From Planctomyces sp. SH-PL62 (GTDB lineage Bacteria; Planctomycetota; Planctomycetia; Isosphaerales; Isosphaeraceae), in assembly GCF_001610895.1 (NCBI RefSeq), contig NZ_CP011273.1, forward strand, positions 806,001-870,000: a stretch of DNA of 64,000 bases, read 5' to 3'. The position numbers and the translations under genes were made by a program. Position 1 is the stretch's first letter. The number at the start of each line of letters is the position of its first letter. The notes beneath the pieces were generated by a model. The model worked only from the letters and a program-made list of their open reading frames with translations, was not told the DNA's origin and did not search any database. Of the stretch, positions 54,067 through 64,000 are shown in pieces.

Positions 54067-55152
54067 ATGGCCGAAAGCAATCTCGCCGAGGGGAACGGGC
54101 TGACGCCCGAGTACGACGCGATCCTGATCGTCGGCTTCGGCGGCCCGGAGAAGCCCGAGGACGTCATGCCCTTCCTCGAGAACGTGACCCGAGGCCGCAA
54201 CATCCCCCGGGAGCGGCTCGAGGAGGTCGCCGAGCATTACCACCACTTCGGCGGGGTGAGCCCGATCAACGCCCAGACCCGAGCGTTGATCGACGACCTC
54301 GGCCCCGAGATGCGTCGGCATGGGGTGACGATCCCGATCTACTGGGGCAACCGCAACTGGACGCCGATGCTGGCGGACACGATGCGGGAGATGGCCGGGG
54401 CCGGCGTGGAGCGGGTCCTGGCGGTCGTCCTGGCGGCGTACAGCTCCTATTCGAGCTGTCGACAGTATCGTGAGGATATCGGCCGCGCCCGTGAGGAGGT
54501 CGGCCCGACGGCCCCGACGGTCGACAAGGTGCGGGTCTTCTACAACCACCCCGAATTCATCGCCGCCAATGCGGACCGGGTCCGCGAGGCGCTCGCCGGC
54601 CTCCCCGCCGAGGCGAGGGGACGGGTCCCCATCGCCTTCACCGCACACAGCCTCCCGACGTCGATGGCCGCGTCGTCCGCCTATGTGCGACAACTCGAGG
54701 AGACCTGCCGACTGGTCGCCGAGGAGTTGAAGATCGAGGACGATCGCTGGTCGCTCGTCTACCAGAGCCGAAGCGGCCGTCCCAGCGACCCCTGGCTCGG
54801 GCCCGACATCCTGGAACACCTCCAGGCCCTGCGCGACGGCGGCGCGGAGGAGGTCGTCGTCCACCCGATCGGCTTCCTCTCCGACCACATGGAAGTCCTC
54901 TACGACCTCGACGAGGAGGCGCGGCTGCTTTGCGAGCGGATCGGCCTGACCCTGGCGCGTTCGCGGACCGTGGGGACCCACCGGGGCTTCGTCCGCATGA
55001 TTCGCGAGCTGATCTGCGAGCGGCTCCAGCATGCGGAGGCCGAGGAGCGGCGGGCGGTCGGCCGGTTCGGCCCCTCGCACGACGTCTGCCCGGTCGACTG
55101 CTGCCTCCCCCCCGCGCGGCCGGCGGCGGCCTACGCGAAGGCCGGGGCCTGA
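54067..55152 (+). CDS. Ferrochelatase, coproporphyrin-type
   Basis: A 361-residue ferrochelatase that inserts ferrous iron into a porphyrin. The catalytic His region is FTAHSLPTSM (H194), and the GFLSDHMEVLYDLD block holds the acidic residues. The internal motif YSSYSSCRQYRED with C131 and a C-terminal CPVDCC cluster (C341, C345, C346) resemble the coproporphyrin ferrochelatases of actinobacteria, some of which bind [2Fe-2S] clusters with four cysteines. I infer the coproheme pathway from this resemblance but note that the C-terminal spacing differs from the actinobacterial pattern I recall. The symbol hemH or cpfC is left open. The gene precedes the signalling cluster but is separated from it by 172 bases. 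Confidence 0.88.
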   Translation: MAESNLAEGNGLTPEYDAILIVGFGGPEKPEDVMPFLENVTRGRNIPRERLEEVAEHYHHFGGVSPINAQTRALIDDLGPEMRRHGVTIPIYWGNRNWTPMLADTMREMAGAGVERVLAVVLAAYSSYSSCRQYREDIGRAREEVGPTAPTVDKVRVFYNHPEFIAANADRVREALAGLPAEARGRVPIAFTAHSLPTSMAASSAYVRQLEETCRLVAEELKIEDDRWSLVYQSRSGRPSDPWLGPDILEHLQALRDGGAEEVVVHPIGFLSDHMEVLYDLDEEARLLCERIGLTLARSRTVGTHRGFVRMIRELICERLQHAEAEERRAVGRFGPSHDVCPVDCCLPPARPAAAYAKAGA

Positions 55153-55324
55153 GGGACGAGGTTCGGGCTGGACTAGCCATCGCCGCGTCCGGTCCCCTAT
55201 CATGAGGCTTCCCGCCTTCGACCCGACTCGTCCGGTCGCAGGCGGATGGGTGATCCGTTTTCCGACACCCCGCGCCGACGGATTCGACGTGCGGGGAGCG
55301 AGCCGGGCCGGGGAGAGAACGTTG

Positions 55325-56494
55325 ATGTCGTCGCGTCGGATTTTGCTGGTTGAAGACAGTTCCACGATGCGCCGCATGCTCGGCACGCTGCTCAAGGAGG
55401 AGGGCTTTGAGGTCCGTACGGCCAACGACGGGGCCGAGGGACTGATCCAGGCCAAGGAGGATCCCCGACCGGACCTGATCCTCACCGATTATGAGATGCC
55501 CGAGCTGGACGGCCCCGGCTTCTGCAAGGCCGCCAAGGCCGACGTCGACATCCGGTCGATCCCGGTCCTGATGCTCACCACCCTGGGCGAGACCCACAAC
55601 AAGATCGCCGGCCTGGAATCCGGGGCCGACGACTACATCCAGAAGCCCAAGAGCCCGGACGATATCCAGGAGATGTTCGCGAGGATCCGCGCCCACCTGC
55701 GGATCGCCGACCTCCGCTCCGAGCTGGCCGATCGCAACCGGCTGCTGGAAAGCGCGCACAAGAAGCTGACTTTCGAGCTGGAGCTGGCGCGCAAGGTCCA
55801 GTTCGCGATGATGCCCCGGCCCCCCAAGCCCCGGGGCGTGCTGCAAGTGGCCGTGCGCTACACCCCGGCCAACCAGCTCGGCGGCGACGTCTACGATTTC
55901 TACCGGCTGGATAACAACCGGCTGGGCGTGCTCGTCGCCGACGTCTCGGGCCACGGGGTCAACGCGGCGATGCTCTCGGGCATGGTCAAGACCCTGGCGG
56001 CCGGGCTGTCGATCGCCGTGCTGGAGCCGGGCGAGCTGCTCGCCGGCCTGGACGTCTCGGGCGAGCAGTATTTCCCCGAAGGCTACTTCTGCACCGGCTT
56101 CTACCTGATCGCCGACGAGGAGACCGGGCTGATCCGCTACGCCGGCGTCGGCCACCCGTCGGGAATCGTCATCGGCCCCAACGGTCCGCGCATGCTGGAA
56201 TCGAATCCGGGGATGCTCGGCATCGGCATGGTCGACGGCACCGCCGGCGGCGCCGACCGCCTGGAGCCGGGCGAAACCCTGATCCTCTACACCGACGGCC
56301 TCCCCGACGCCATGGACCCGTCCGACGTGATCTTCGGCGAGGAGCGGCTCAAGACCCTGCTCCAGGGCCACTACGGCAGCGACCCGACCGAGATCATCGA
56401 CCAAGTCGACGACGCCGTCCAGGCCTACACCGCCCCCGGCCGACCGGCCGACGACATCAACATCATCGTCATCCAGCACCCCGCCCCAAAGTGA
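55325..56494 (+). CDS. Response regulator with PP2C-type (SpoIIE/RsbU) phosphatase output
   Basis: A 389-residue two-domain protein. Residues 1-122 form a receiver with phospho-acceptor D55 (LILTDYEMPELDG), the acidic pair E10-D11, and a conserved Lys in YIQKPKS. A short coiled coil (130-160) connects to a PP2C-like serine phosphatase (about 165-385) with GGDVYDFY, VADVSGHG and DDINIIVI motifs. In the RsbU/SpoIIE family such phosphatases dephosphorylate STAS-domain anti-anti-sigma proteins. The STAS-domain gene downstream is an attractive but unproved partner. The ATG at 55325 has a GGGGAGAG upstream. Confidence 0.93.
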   Translation: MSSRRILLVEDSSTMRRMLGTLLKEEGFEVRTANDGAEGLIQAKEDPRPDLILTDYEMPELDGPGFCKAAKADVDIRSIPVLMLTTLGETHNKIAGLESGADDYIQKPKSPDDIQEMFARIRAHLRIADLRSELADRNRLLESAHKKLTFELELARKVQFAMMPRPPKPRGVLQVAVRYTPANQLGGDVYDFYRLDNNRLGVLVADVSGHGVNAAMLSGMVKTLAAGLSIAVLEPGELLAGLDVSGEQYFPEGYFCTGFYLIADEETGLIRYAGVGHPSGIVIGPNGPRMLESNPGMLGIGMVDGTAGGADRLEPGETLILYTDGLPDAMDPSDVIFGEERLKTLLQGHYGSDPTEIIDQVDDAVQAYTAPGRPADDINIIVIQHPAPK

Positions 56495-56625
56495 GGACGT
56501 GAGGTCGATCCGCAAACGCGGGCCCGCGCCGTCTCACCCTTGGCCGGGCCGATGGACCGCGTCGCCGGAAACGTGCTAGAATACCCAGAACGGTGATTCG
56601 TGCGCATCGTGCGGAGCCCACCGTC

Positions 56626-56654
56626 TCGACGCGCGGTCTGGATCATCTTATAAT
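56626..56654 (+). promoter_or_regulatory. Promoter of the STAS gene
   Basis: TCGACG (56626-56631) and a perfect TATAAT (56649-56654) are separated by 17 bases. The predicted start is near 56661, giving a 39-base leader before the GTG of the STAS gene. It suggests that STAS and the following response regulator are not simply read through from the PP2C gene. Confidence 0.6.
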
Positions 56655-56699
56655 TTCAGAAGAAGTCGTGGGCGCGGCCGTCAGGGTCGCGATCTGGTC

Positions 56700-56996
56700 G
56701 TGAACCCAGGCGGACCGAAAACGGTGGCGCTCGACGGCCCGGTGACGATCTACGAGGTCGCCGGCCTGCGCGAGGCGTTCCGAGAGGCCCTGGCCGAGGG
56801 CGTGGATCTCCAGGTCGAACTCGACGAGTCGACGAAATGGGACCTGGCGGGGCTCCAGTTGTTGATCTCGTGCGTCCAGACGGCGAAGGCCGACGGCCGC
56901 AGCCTGGTCCTCGCCAAGATCCCCCGGTCGTGCGTCGAGGTGGCCGAGCGCGCGGGGCTCTCCGATTGGCTCGAATCGGCATCGCAAAAGGACTGA
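56700..56996 (+). CDS. STAS-domain protein (anti-sigma antagonist-like)
   Basis: A 98-residue single STAS domain. The strand/helix pattern is typical: KTVALDGPVTIYEVAGLREAF, VDLQVELDESTKWDLAGLQLLI, DGRSLVLAKIP and CVEVAERAGLSDWL. At the usual phosphorylation site of SpoIIAA-like proteins (D-S/T-S/A-G) this protein reads DLAG, so the phosphorylatable Ser/Thr is missing. It is therefore more likely a structural or chemotaxis-associated STAS protein than a classical partner-switch antagonist. The gene sits between two response-regulator genes and upstream of cheA. The GTG start is used because no ATG fits the domain start. Confidence 0.88.
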   Translation: MNPGGPKTVALDGPVTIYEVAGLREAFREALAEGVDLQVELDESTKWDLAGLQLLISCVQTAKADGRSLVLAKIPRSCVEVAERAGLSDWLESASQKD

Positions 56997-57206
56997 CCCC
57001 GGCGGGAGGCCGTGCAGCCTCCAGCCGGCGGGACTCGAAGACGACGTCGCGTCCTGATCCCCGGCGGCCACCGCCGAGGATCAGGGCGGACCAGCCTGGA
57101 GGCGGCGATTATGAACTGGGCCTCCCCCCAGACGCTCCCCGCGCCCGCGGCCAGACGCTCCCGTCTGAATGATCCGCATGATCTGTCGCACGCCGGCGCC
57201 AAGACC

Positions 57207-57578
57207 ATGACCAAGACCAAGACCGTCCTCCATGCCGACGATAGCGGATCGGTCCGTCGATGGGTCGCCGAACAGCTCGGCGGGATGGGCCTGAAGGTCG
57301 TCTCCGTCGCCGACGGCGACGCCGCCCTCCAATACCTTCAGGATTCGACCTGCGACCTGCTGCTGACCGACCTGGAGATGCCCAATCTCGACGGCCTGGC
57401 GCTGCTCGCGGCCGTGCGGGAACTCCCCGCCCATCGGTTCCTCCCCGTCCTCGTCCTCTCCAGCAAGCAGCCCGGCGAGTTCGACCCCCGGCGCCGACAG
57501 GGGGTCACCGGCTGGTTGGTCAAGCCGGTCGACGGCGAGCATCTCCGACGTTGGGTCCGCCGCGTCCTTCCGGAGTAG
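57207..57578 (+). CDS. Single-domain response regulator (CheY-like)
   Basis: A 123-residue receiver with D11-D12 (HADDSG), phospho-acceptor D55 (LLTDLEMPNLDG), a late Ser in VLSSK and the conserved Lys in WLVKPVDG. There is no output domain. Given cheA 318 bases downstream, it could be the CheY of this pathway or a phosphate sink; this is inferred from position. The ATG at 57207 was preferred because it starts the receiver directly, although the frame is open further upstream with an in-frame ATG at 57111. Confidence 0.88.
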   Translation: MTKTKTVLHADDSGSVRRWVAEQLGGMGLKVVSVADGDAALQYLQDSTCDLLLTDLEMPNLDGLALLAAVRELPAHRFLPVLVLSSKQPGEFDPRRRQGVTGWLVKPVDGEHLRRWVRRVLPE

Positions 57579-57896: not shown

Positions 57897-60359
57897 TTGG
57901 GAAGTGCGGACGATCGATTTCGCGAGATGTTCTACGAGGAGGCGCGTGAGCTTCTGATCAGCCTCGAAGAAGGGCTGATGGAGCTGGAACGCCGCCAGGG
58001 CGACCGCGCGCACCTCGACAAGACCTTCCGCGCCGCGCACAGCGTCAAGGGCGCCGCGGCGATGGTCGGCCTGGGGGCGATCGCGGAGTTCACCCACGGC
58101 ATCGAGGCCGTCCTCGAACGCATCCGGACCGGCAGCCTGGCCGTCGACTCCGACATCATCACCACGCTGCTGGAATCGCGCGACCACCTCGCGGCCATGG
58201 TCGAAGGGGAGGCCGGAGGCTCGCCGATCCCCGGCTCGAGTCACCTCAGCCAGCGCCTCACGGACCTGCTGACCTCGACCAGGCCCCCCGAGCCGCCCGA
58301 CGAGCCGCCCCCCGCCGCGCCGCCGACTCATCCGTCGCCCTCGCCGGCCCCGGTCCCCGCGCCTTCGTCCGCCGGGCCTCCCCCGCCGTCGAAGTCGCCC
58401 GAGCCCAGGCCCGAGGCACCCCAGCCGCCCCCGGCCACCGGCCCACCGACGAAGCCCGACGAGCCCGAGCCGCCGGCGGCCGAAAGCAGCCCCGAGTCGA
58501 AGCCCGCCGCGAAGCCGAAACGCTCGCGACGCAAGACCGAGAAGCCCGCCGAGGCCGGTGGGGAGACGAAAGCCGAGGCCAAACCCAAGGCCCCCCCCCG
58601 AGGGAAGGCCGCCGAGCGCAGGTCCATGCCCTCGGCGTCGCCCGCCGCCCCGAAGGCCGCCGAGCCGGAGGGGGAACCCAAGCCCCTCTACCGCATCCGA
58701 TTCGCCCCCGGCCCCGACGTCCTCAAGCGAGGCGTCAACCTGCTGGGGGTTTTCGATGAACTGCGCGAGCTGGGTGAGCTGGAGGTCCTGGCGGACGCCG
58801 AGGCCGTGCCGACCCTCGACGACTTCGACGCCGAGCGCTGCTACCTGAGCTGGACCTGTACGCTCCGGACCGACGTGGAGCCCGAGCGGCTGGACGACGT
58901 CTTCCTGTTCGTGGCCGAAGACGGCGCGATCGGGGTCGAGCGACGGCTCGACGACGGGTCGTTCGAGCCGGTGGAGACCCCGCTCCTGAAGCTGCCGAGG
59001 GGCACGCCGGTGTCGTCGCCGCCGACGCCCGTCGCCAGGTCCCAGCCCGTCCCCGCCCCGGCCCCGATCGAGACGCCCGCCGCGCCCGCGTCGGCCGCCG
59101 CCGCCGACGGCGCGAAGCGTCCCGTGGTCGCGACGAACGTCCCGGCGGCCCGCGCGCACGGCCGGATCCGGGTGGACGCCCAGCAACTCGACGACCTCGT
59201 CGGCCTGGCCGGCGAACTGGCGGTCATCTCCGACAACCTGCAGGGGCTTCGCGAAGTCCGCAGCGCGGCCCCCTGGGGTGCCACCCTGGAATCGCTGCTG
59301 CGGGTCAGCCGTGAGATCCGGGACACCACGCTCGACCTCCGGATGGTCCCGGTCGACGAGCTCTTCTCGCGGTTCCCCCGGTTCGTCCGCGACCAGGCCG
59401 ACCGCTCGGGCAAGGAGATCGAGCTTCGGATCTTCGGGCAGGAGACCAAACTCGACCGGACGATCATCGAGCGTCTCGGCGACCCGATGATCCACCTGAT
59501 CCGCAACGCCGTCGACCACGCCCTCGAACTCCCGGAGGAGCGGCTCGCCGCGGGGAAGCCCCGGGTCGGGCGGATCACGCTCACGGCGGGTCATGAGGGA
59601 GATCGGGTGGCGCTCAAGGTGGAGGACGACGGACGCGGCCTCGACCGCGAGCGGATCGTCCGCAAGGGGATCGACCGGGGCCTGATCCCGCCCGGCACCT
59701 CCCCCGACGACCCCCGGGTGGTGGGCCTGATCTTCGAGGCCGGGTTCTCGACACGCGATCAGGTGAGCGACATGTCCGGCCGGGGCGTGGGCCTGGACGT
59801 CGTCCGCGATTCGGTTCGGGCCCTCCGGGGGAGCCTGGGGGTCGAGAGTACGCCGGGCAAGGGGACCTCGTTCACCTTCCGCCTGCCGCTGACCCTGGCC
59901 CTGATCGACGGGCTCCTGATCGAGACCGGCGGAGGACGCTACGTCGTCCCCCTGGCCCAGGTCGAGGAGTGCGTGGCGCTGGGGGGCGTCCAGACGGCCC
60001 TCTCCGAGGATCGGTCCTGCGTGACGGTGCGCGGGGAGCTGGTGCCGACCATCTCGCTGCGGCGGCTCTTCGGGATCGAGGGCCCCCCCCCGGTTCGTCA
60101 GGAACTGCTCCTCACCCGGTACGCCGGCCGGCGCGTGGGAGTGGCCGTGGATCGCCTCAGCGGGCGGGTCCAGGCCGTCATCCAGTCGCTCGGCGAGGGG
60201 CTGCACGGCCTGGGACGGTTCTCCGGCGCGACCATCCTGGGGGACGGCTCGGTCTCCCTGATCCTGGACCTGGCGGCGCTCGTTTCGGAATCGCGGATCG
60301 CCGAGAACACCTTACGAAGCACGCCGATGGCAGGCGTGAGGGCGGAGACCGTCCGATGA
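57897..60359 (+). CDS. cheA: Chemotaxis histidine kinase CheA
   Basis: An 820-residue CheA. The Hpt domain (residues 1-110) carries the phosphorylated H48 in [12 protein letters not shown] long, disordered Pro/Ala/Glu-rich linker (about 125-260) leads to a P2-like domain (265-360) for regulator binding. The dimerisation and ATPase domains follow, with [12 protein letters not shown] (N box), VEDDGRGLD (G1) and GRGVGLDVV (G2), and the last ~130 residues are the CheW-like regulatory domain. The TTG at 57897 is the first start after an in-frame TAG at 57876 and has AGGAAG 10 bases upstream. The stop overlaps the MCP start by ATGA. No receiver domain is attached. Confidence 0.97.
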
Positions 60360-62262
60360 GACTGACCCTGCGGAAGAAAGTCACCCTGGCGCTGGTGGCC
60401 TTCGGCCTGATCCCGGCGGGCATCGTCGCGGCGACCGCCTACATCGCCGACGACCAGTTCAAGCGCAAGCAAGACTTGATCATCCAGACCGCCGCGTCCG
60501 CGATCAGCGACAAGATCCACACCATCGCCCTGACCAACCAGAAGACCAGGCCGGCCACGGCCCCGGCGACGGCGGACGCCCCCGAACAGGAGGGGCTGGC
60601 GCTGCCGGAGTGGAACCTGGACGACGCCACCCGGCGGATGACCCAGAACGCGATCTCCGAGGTCGTCTCGCGGTTCGAGCTGGCCAACACCCAGGTGATG
60701 GTCGTCGACCCGCGGAACAGCGTCGTGATCCGCCACCGGGGACCGGCCGGCTCGTTCGACGACAAGGCCGACACGCTCGAATCCCGATACCGGGCGACCG
60801 TCAACCGGGCCCAGAACGCGATCGGCCACGATCACGTGGAGCCGGTCTCGGGCGAGACCTACCTGGAGCCCGAGGTCGTCGGCTTCGCCTCGATCCGGCT
60901 GGCGACGACCCTCGCGCCCGGCGACGAGCACGGCTACGCGGTCCTCGTCGCCGTGCCCCGCAAGAACGCCTACGAGACGATCTACGGCTCGCAGAGCAAG
61001 ATCCTGATGCTCCTGGGCGCCATCATCCCGCTCACCATCCTCCTGGGCTTCCTGTTCGGCCGCTGGTTCATCCGCCCCTTGCTCCAGATCATCCGCGTCA
61101 CCGAGGACCTGCACGAAGGGCACCTCTACAACCGCACCGGGATCGTCCGCTCGGACGAAATGGGCGAGCTGGCCGGGCTGACCGACTCGGTGGTGGGCAA
61201 GCTCTCGGAGGTCGTGGGCCAGATCCGCAACATGACCGCGTCGGTCTCGACGGCGAGCAACGAGCTGAACTCCTCGGCCCAGCAGCTCGCCCAGGGGGCC
61301 CACCAGCAGGCGGCGACCCTCCAGGAGATCGGCAGCAGCCTCCAGTCGGTCGACGGCTCGGTGGCCCGCAACGCCCAGCACGCCCGCGACACCGCCCGGA
61401 CCGCCAACGAGGCCAGCGCCCAGGCCGGCCGGGGAGGGGAGGCGGTCCACGAGACCGTCGCCGCGATGCGTGAGATCACCCAGAAGATCCTGATCGTCGA
61501 GGACATCGCCTACCAGACGAACCTGCTGTCGCTCAACGCGGCCATCGAGGCCGCCCGCGCCGGCCCGCACGGCCGGGGGTTCGCCGTGGTCGCCGGCGAG
61601 GTCAAGAAGCTGGCCGAGCGGAGCCAGGCGGCGGCCCAGCAGATCAGCGATCTGGCCAAGAAAAGCGTGGCGGTCGCCGAGAACGCCGGCCAACTTTTGG
61701 AGCGGACGGTGCCGATGATCCGCGACACGTCCGAGCTGATCTCGGAGATCGCCGCCGCCAGCCAGGAGCAGATGAACGCGATCCGCGAGATCAACATCGG
61801 CGTGAAGCAGCTGGAAGACGTGGTCTCGCAGAACGCCGCGGCCAGCCACGAGCTCGCGGCCACCTCGACCGACCTGGCGCTGCAGTCGTCCAGCCTCCAG
61901 CGCGAGGTCGACTTTTTCCGGCTGGACGCCGGAGCCTACAAGCCCCCGCTCGCCCCCTCGCCGGGTCGGGGGCTGGAACACGGGTCGCGGGGGAGCGCCC
62001 ACCACCCGGTCCATCGGGCCCCCGCCGCCCTCGCGAGCGACGGCCGCCACGGCGTCGACCACCCGGTCGCGACGGGGCATGGGCATGGGACCGGGCCGGG
62101 GCATCCCTCGGCCCAGGGCCACGGCCATCATGCCGGGGGGCCGCTGCCGGGCCCCCCCCGTCGGCCGCCGGGGCCGGGGCCTCGTCGGCCGGCATGGTCC
62201 CCCCGCCGAGGGGCGGGGTGGTGGTCAACCTTGACGACGACGACAATTTCGAGCGATTCTGA
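60356..62262 (+). CDS. Methyl-accepting chemotaxis protein, frame disrupted near C-terminus
   Basis: A membrane chemoreceptor of about 635 residues if read through the frame change. TM1 (8-30), an extracytoplasmic sensor (31-215), TM2 (218-240), HAMP (240-293) and a cytoplasmic signalling domain are visible. The hairpin tip is [20 protein letters not shown]. After a His-rich tail ([19 protein letters not shown]) the chain meets a run of eight C (62152-62159). In the annotated frame it continues with unlikely sequence to 62359, while the -1 frame gives [14 protein letters not shown] and stops at 62262. That tail is much more natural: NFERF resembles the NWETF pentapeptide that binds CheR. The start ATG overlaps cheA. 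Confidence 0.85.
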
Positions 62263-62355
62263 TGGGGGCGAGACGCCCGCCGCGTCGATCCGAACTCGAT
62301 CCGACCTCCACGCCTCGCCTCTCGGCCGAGGCGATCCCCTGAAGGACCGCCGCGG

Positions 62356-62862
62356 ATGATCGACATGACCACCGACGACGTCATCGAACGGGAACGGGAC
62401 CGCGCCCAATCGTACGTCGTCTTCCGCCTGGGGGGGGAGGGCTACGCGCTGGAGGTCATGCGCGTCCAGGAGGTGCTGGACGTGCTGGCGATCACCGAGG
62501 TCCCGGGGGCCTCGCGATGCCTGCTGGGGGTGATCAACCTACGCGGGCATGTCGTGCCGGTGTATGATTTGAGGATCCCGTTCGGACTGCCGGTCGACCC
62601 CAAGCCCGCTCGCGCGCCCAGCGTGTTGATCGTGGAGACCGAGGCGGGGAACGATTCGGAGGTGACGGGACTCCTGGTCGATCGGGTCTCCGACGTCCTG
62701 GAGTTCGCGCCCGACGAGGTGCAGCCGTCGCCGCAGTTGGGGTTGGGGAAGACCACGCCGTTCGTCCGGGGGCTGATCCGACACCAGGACGCCTTCCTGC
62801 TGGTGCTTGACGTGGACCGTGTGTTCTCGGTTCTGGCCTCGATCAATGGCGGGGGAGTTTAA
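62356..62862 (+). CDS. cheW: Chemotaxis coupling protein CheW
   Basis: A 168-residue CheW that links the receptor to CheA. It shows the usual start [24 protein letters not shown], the [13 protein letters not shown] core, and [16 protein letters not shown]. No CheA- or CheV-type extra domain is present. The ATG at 62356 is preceded by AAGGA at about 62342-62346. Its stop is 1 base before the start of cheR, so the two are almost certainly co-transcribed. Confidence 0.96.
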
Positions 62863-62863
62863 C

Positions 62864-63730
62864 GTGGCGACGTCGGGCCTGCTGCCACCCTCGCCCTCGG
62901 GTGAACCCGATGCGTGGTCCGAAAAAGATTTCGGCTGCGTCATTGTGTTCCTCCGCAGCCAGATCGGCATCAGCCTGGAGACGCACCGGCTGGGGCTGCT
63001 CCAGGCGCGACTGCGCTCTCGCCTGCAGGCGCGGGGGATCGCCAGCTTCTCGCAGTTCTACGACCAGGCGCTGCGGCCCGACCCCACGGGCTGGGGGGCG
63101 CAGCTGCTGATCGACCTGAGCACGGTCAACCACACCTCGTTCTTCCGCGAGCCGGCCCACTTCACCTTCCTGATCGAGAAGGTCTCCCAGTGGCTCCGGG
63201 AGTCGCCGACGAGTTCGGTGCGGATCTGGTCGGCCGGCTGCTCGTCCGGGCAGGAGCCCTACAGCATGGCGATGGCCCTGGCCGAGGCCCTGCCGCCCCA
63301 CAGCCTCTCGCGGATCGACATCTGGGGGAGCGACCTGTCGCTGGAGATGCTCAAGGTGGCCGCCGGGGCGATCTACACCACGCGGGACGTCCAGGGGGTC
63401 TCGCAGGCGCGGCTCCGGCGATTCTTCCTGCTGGGCCGCGGCCCCCGCGAGGGCTCGTTCCGGATCGTCCCCGAGATCCGCGACCTGGTGAAGTTCCGGC
63501 ACATCGACCTGCGAACGGCCCACTGGGCGATCCCGACCGACTTCCACGTGGTCTTCTGCCGCAACGTCTCGATCTACTTCTCCGACGAGGAGCGGCAGGT
63601 TCTGCTCAATCGGCTCGCCCAGCACATCCGGCCCGCCGGTTGGCTGGTGATGGGCAACGGCGAGATCCTGCCGTCGGTCCCGGCGGTGTTCCACAAGCAG
63701 TCGCCGTCGATTTTCCAGAAAGAGGCTTGA
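62864..63730 (+). CDS. cheR: Chemotaxis methyltransferase CheR
   Basis: A 288-residue SAM-dependent methyltransferase that methylates glutamates of MCPs. The SAM motif is IWSAGCSSGQEPYS; the NHTSFFREP block and DVVFCRN-like HVVFCRNVSIYF are also typical. I chose the GTG at 62864 over the ATG at 62846 because GGGGGAG at 62851-62857 has ideal spacing to it and it follows the cheW stop directly. The presence of a receptor tail that looks like the CheR docking peptide supports this pairing. Confidence 0.95.
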   Translation: MATSGLLPPSPSGEPDAWSEKDFGCVIVFLRSQIGISLETHRLGLLQARLRSRLQARGIASFSQFYDQALRPDPTGWGAQLLIDLSTVNHTSFFREPAHFTFLIEKVSQWLRESPTSSVRIWSAGCSSGQEPYSMAMALAEALPPHSLSRIDIWGSDLSLEMLKVAAGAIYTTRDVQGVSQARLRRFFLLGRGPREGSFRIVPEIRDLVKFRHIDLRTAHWAIPTDFHVVFCRNVSIYFSDEERQVLLNRLAQHIRPAGWLVMGNGEILPSVPAVFHKQSPSIFQKEA

Positions 63731-63736
63731 GCCGCC

Positions 63737-64000
63737 ATGGCCCTGCGCGATCGCTCCCAACCGCCGGTCCCGCCCGCGCATCACTCGGCGATCGAGGTGA
63801 TGGTGGTGGACGACAGCGCCGTGATCCGTCAGCGGCTGAAGTCGATCATCGAGTCGGACCATCGGTTCCGCGTCACCCTCGCGGCCGACCCGTACGAGGC
63901 GGTCGCCATGCTCAGCCGGTCGGTCCCCGGCGTCATCGTGCTCGACGTCGAGATGCCCCGGATGGACGGGCTGACGTTCCTGCGCAAGCTGATGAAGCAG
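63737..64000 (+). CDS. cheB: Chemotaxis response regulator CheB (partial)
   Basis: The first 88 residues of a receiver-containing protein run off the window end. The receiver shows VMVVDDSAVIRQRL and VLDVEMPRMDGLTFLRKLM, with the phospho-acceptor Asp in LDVEMP. In this position after cheR it is very probably the methylesterase CheB, whose catalytic domain would lie beyond 64000. The ATG follows the cheR stop by six bases. Confidence 0.85.
   Translation, partial: MALRDRSQPPVPPAHHSAIEVMVVDDSAVIRQRLKSIIESDHRFRVTLAADPYEAVAMLSRSVPGVIVLDVEMPRMDGLTFLRKLMKQ

Follow-up and report, generated by a model that had tools for sequence, protein, structure and literature searches.

A class 34H chemoreceptor of Planctomyces sp. 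SH-PL62 with a predicted CheR-tethering pentapeptide behind a frame break in the assembled gene

The window analysed here is a stretch of 64,000 nucleotides from the 6.78 Mb genome of Planctomyces sp. SH-PL62. The 16S gene of this genome contains an exact match to the target of Pla46, a probe specific for planctomycetes. It carries a chemosensory gene cluster with the following features, given in window positions:

57897-60359, + strand: cheA, with Hpt, HATPase_c and CheW domains; the 3' end overlaps the start of the MCP gene
60356-62159, + strand: MCP gene from its ATG at 60356 up to the frame break; 28 orthologues
61400-61858, + strand: MCP signalling domain, amino acids 349-501 (Pfam MCPsignal, 3.9e-34; HMMER alignment to Tsr)
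62120-62175, + strand: bracket around the frame break, from frame comparison with the relative L008 and the switch in G+C by codon position
62152-62159, + strand: C8 homopolymer, the likeliest break point
62160-62359, + strand: 0-frame tail as assembled, matched in no relative
62212-62259, + strand: conserved C-terminal module of 16 residues in the -1 frame, the in-frame end of 28/28 orthologues
62245-62259, + strand: predicted CheR-tethering pentapeptide NFERF, fitting the xF/YxxF/Y of class 34H MCPs (PMC2577667)
62260-62262, + strand: stop codon after NFERF, -1 frame
62356-62862, + strand: cheW (Pfam CheW, 1.3e-33)
62864-63730, + strand: cheR, GTG start (Pfam CheR, 3.5e-52; CheR_N, 3.7e-8; best solved relative 1BC5)
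63428-63463, + strand: long beta-loop of CheR, LLGRGPREGSFR, pentapeptide-binding subdomain; no gap relative to Salmonella CheR
63737-64000, + strand: probable cheB, of which only the response-regulator start (Response_reg, 4.5e-16) precedes the window end

From N- to C-terminus, the MCP comprises a TM/sensor region, a degenerate HAMP (its score lay under the cut-off in the Pfam search), a class 34H-like signalling domain and a linker rich in Pro, His and Gly. The assignment of the last, truncated gene as a probable CheB follows from gene order. A receiver-SpoIIE phosphatase, a STAS-domain protein and a lone receiver are encoded 5' of cheA (55031-57578), and because of these neighbors the cluster may feed a partner-switching regulator instead of a flagellum.

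Where does the receptor end? In the assembled sequence, the 0-frame runs open from the ATG at 60356 to a TGA at 62357-62359, which overlaps the cheW ATG at 62356, and encodes 667 amino acids. Re-reading one base at the C8 run yields instead a 635-amino-acid protein that ends in NFERF at 62262. The preliminary description had placed a frame break at this run with a pentapeptide in the -1 frame, and both its coordinates and the re-read translation agree with ours. Upstream of C8, G+C by codon position (0.90/0.67/0.88) fits the 0-frame. Downstream, the -1 frame has coding-like values (0.71/0.56/0.88) and the 0-frame does not (0.55/0.91/0.73), in line with the earlier remark that the 0-frame tail is compositionally unlikely. 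Given this non-coding composition and the lack of any homologue, we rejected the 0-frame tail as the native C-terminus. C8 is the longest run in the MCP gene and sits at the break; since a join at a G6 run (62135-62140), the alternative break point, is equally sensible, the break is bracketed only to about 62120-62175.

Comparison with homologues, which the same description had named as a check, bears directly on this question. Of the 45 genomes examined in this family, 28 besides the present one encode a full-length orthologue of the MCP (40-87% identity). All 28 end in frame in a GG[VI]xVNLDDDxxFERF-like tail, and the 0-frame tail of the window, whose presence in homologues the description had set as its refuting outcome, was seen in 0/28. 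Nor does any relative, including the closest at 87% identity, have a homopolymer run at the C8 site. The NFERF-type tail thus lies outside the translated frame in the assembled window and inside it in all relatives. We conclude that it is genuine and that the break probably reflects a sequencing slip or a mutation of recent date. By these comparisons, the break is a property of this assembly, not of the gene family. The linker upstream of the tail is unconserved among the orthologues while the tail is kept, which indicates separate selection on the tail. The conserved stretch spans about 15 residues, and within it the final aromatic varies more than the FER core. Fourteen of the 28 tails carry one extra residue past the final F, three end in FERM and one ends in FERQP; therefore neither the fifth aromatic nor the exact C-terminal position is absolute. 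A paralogous MCP in a relative's genome (L194 / L224, G006:C564) ends in GVSIQLDEDKHFERIP, a variant with two residues past FER and the fifth aromatic absent. A class-level protein search returned matches within the same family only (29/249 genomes), and a plasmid search for relatives returned distant MCPs only.

Could the resemblance to a pentapeptide be due to chance? Over 400 kb of this genome, a terminal xZxxZ (Z = F, W or Y) occurs at 0/300 coding-like ORF ends and 3/1710 other ORF ends; on these counts and the 28 orthologues, chance resemblance was rejected.

In the HMMER alignment to Tsr, a class 36H receptor, the signalling domain shows a 7-residue gap on each arm. Since each arm is one heptad short of the Tsr length, the MCP is assigned to class 34H. 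Tethering pentapeptides have been defined by a terminal xZxxZ, with Z = F, W or Y (PMC7390727), and those of 34H receptors follow xF/YxxF/Y, with the Geobacter consensus EFEKF (PMC2577667). NFERF in the -1 frame fits both patterns. The nearest MCPs outside the planctomycetes, from Pseudomonas, Desulfuromonadaceae, Sulfuritalea, Spirochaetia and others, end in EFTRF, DFVKF, EFEKY, DFERF, DFEQY and KFERF, and NFERF is therefore an ordinary 34H-type pentapeptide and not an NWETF variant. The earlier statement that it closely resembles NWETF holds as far as the presence of a pentapeptide is concerned, and is better rephrased as an xFxxF type of class 34H. A second motif, G[VI]x[VIL]x[LM] (62212-62232), lies several to about 15 residues ahead of the pentapeptide. 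The same motif is found in some other 34H-type MCPs (L049, L057 and L071), as GVHLQLG..EFEKY, GIQLDLG..EFERS and GVEIYLG..DFEKF, and it is possibly an extended docking element.

As already described, cheR lies two genes downstream of the MCP, and its product has the long beta-loop. The best solved relative of this CheR is that of Salmonella (1BC5), whose structure was solved with NWETF, and the beta-subdomains align without a gap: LLGRGPREGSFR here and MRGTGPHEGLVR in Salmonella. The beta-loop is long in pentapeptide-dependent CheRs and short in independent ones (PMC3062574). The segment LLGRGPREG is of the long form, while CheR1 of P. aeruginosa, with a 3-residue gap, is of the short form. 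All 27 cognate CheRs retrieved from the relatives have the long beta-loop. Of the six residues that contact the pentapeptide in Salmonella CheR, namely Q182, R187, G188, G190, G194 and R197 (PMC2577667), four are kept (G188, G190, G194 and R197), Q182 is replaced by R, and R187 by L (R in several genera); the two replacements speak against the proposed docking. An AlphaFold model of the CheR built from 28 sequences had too low a confidence for use (mean pLDDT 57.9, under 50 in the beta-loop).

The genome encodes three MCPs and four CheRs. The other two MCPs end in FKV and ARPS, without a pentapeptide, and the other three CheRs have short beta-loops; the pentapeptide tail and the long-loop CheR therefore co-occur once in the genome. 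We consider it very probable that this class 34H MCP natively ends in a CheR tether on which its cognate long-loop CheR docks, and that the break plays no part in the mechanism. The receptor class, the conserved in-frame tail, the long-loop CheR and their exclusivity within the genome are read from the sequence; physical binding, its consequence for methylation and how the break arose are what we infer. As proposed, the MCP would be a class 34H transmembrane chemoreceptor whose native C-terminus consists of a flexible linker of about 110 residues followed by the conserved module. Its last five residues, NFERF, would dock on the long beta-loop of the CheR encoded two genes downstream. Tethering would raise the local CheR concentration around the MCP's methylation sites, leading to more methylation of this receptor, and would insulate its pathway from the two others in the cell. 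The break at about 62152 would lie outside this mechanism, either as a base that the assembly lacks or as a very recent slippage in a run-rich linker. Might the module bind another partner, CheB or one yet to be named, its likeness to a pentapeptide being incidental? The conserved stretch exceeds a pentapeptide, and the greater constancy of the FER core relative to the final aromatic also favors such a partner. Against these stand the strict pairing of the tail with long-loop CheRs and the sharing of this pentapeptide type with related MCPs in other phyla, and we regard another partner as unlikely.

The bases at 62227-62259 stand out at the DNA level. In contrast to the remainder of the gene, which has diverged, these 33 bases are identical across all six congeners and nearly identical in three genomes that belong to two further genera; within them the rare codons CTT, AAT and CGA (4.7, 12 and 12% usage) are kept. 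Such identity points to a constraint acting on the nucleotides themselves; possible candidates are an internal promoter (TTGACG) driving cheW-cheR and an mRNA element.

How did the break arise? The preliminary description offered an assembly error or programmed frameshifting at the C8 run, and of these the former, or else a recent mutation, is supported. We lean slightly toward one C missing through an assembly or base-calling error, with the organism making an intact, tethered receptor. All other genomes of the family are in frame, the tail is perfectly kept, and the break coincides with the longest run of the gene; set against this, 20 comparable runs in the examined stretch are intact. These are C or G runs of at least 8 inside conserved, unbroken coding matches in the 400 kb around the locus, and they indicate that the assembly has no general difficulty with runs, which weakens any blanket claim of homopolymer error; the test is, by its requirement for a 60-bit match on each side, blind to short tails like that of the MCP. 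In this organism, C/G runs of at least 8 are usually stable. A comparison of the 400 kb with a congener gave 10 candidate shifts against 6, in 102 ORFs each, many of them alignment noise. The intactness of the 20 runs in conserved genes of the assembly speaks for a real, recent one-base slippage in C8 (or G6), after which the receptor would be untethered and its 0-frame tail meaningless, as does the abundance of C/G runs in the linker DNA of many relatives. This reading is tenable although less probable than an assembly error: the 33 tail bases, identical among the congeners, have not drifted, and a single artefact accounts for that equally well. Because the tail DNA has not drifted, any real loss must be very recent. 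Taken together, real and recent changes of any kind, phase variation included, fall somewhat short of an even chance.

Two further readings would give the run a function. C8 might be a contingency tract in which replication slippage switches the CheR tether off and on, producing a mixture of cells with tethered and untethered receptors; this we think quite improbable. Least probable of all is programmed -1 frameshifting or transcriptional slippage at C_CCC_CCC, by which a mix of tethered and untethered receptors would be made. The 0-frame does read GGC CCC CCC CGT, formally a slippery heptamer. The relatives, however, need no shift, all their tails are in frame, and the run is absent from the site in each of them. 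The RNA downstream of the run folds no better than shuffled sequence (z 0.05, 200 shuffles), and the 0-frame product that a shift would leave beside the tethered form carries the tail of non-coding composition, for which there is no homologue.

What does this system resemble? In receptor length class, pentapeptide type, the presence of cheR in the cluster and the long beta-loop, it is like the class 34H MCPs and group B CheR described previously (PMC2577667). Unlike the Geobacter-type 34H receptors, it is planctomycete, its acidic lead-in VVNLDDDD is longer and more conserved, the tail often extends one residue past the motif, and the gene is frame-broken as assembled. With Tar and Tsr of E. 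coli and Salmonella, which end in NWETF, it shares a C-terminal aromatic-x-x-Phe on a flexible linker, but those receptors belong to class 36H, have Trp at position 2 and carry a linker of about 35 residues versus about 110 here. On the enzyme side, the likeness to Salmonella CheR (1BC5) lies in the gap-free beta-loop and the four shared contact residues. The Che2 pathway of P. aeruginosa (PMC3062574, PMC7698151) likewise pairs a tethered receptor with a dedicated long-loop CheR (CheR2) as one among several pathways, and differs in receptor architecture and phylum.

Among the papers searched, none describes a pentapeptide-tethered class 34H chemosensory pathway in Planctomycetes. Within one planctomycete family, the present comparison documents such a pathway together with a long-loop CheR of its own. 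The system type is a known one, here extended by a planctomycete branch, and the mechanism itself is not new. Automatic annotation of this genome would assign the MCP a false C-terminus. One tethered receptor and a sole long-loop CheR among three receptors and four CheRs constitute a clean natural case of likely pathway insulation. The genome has two further chemosensory clusters, at about 2.69 Mb (L044, G000:C1) and about 4.22 Mb (L039/L043); one includes a CheR-TPR-like fusion and one a long multi-sensor receptor, and the CheRs of both are short-looped.
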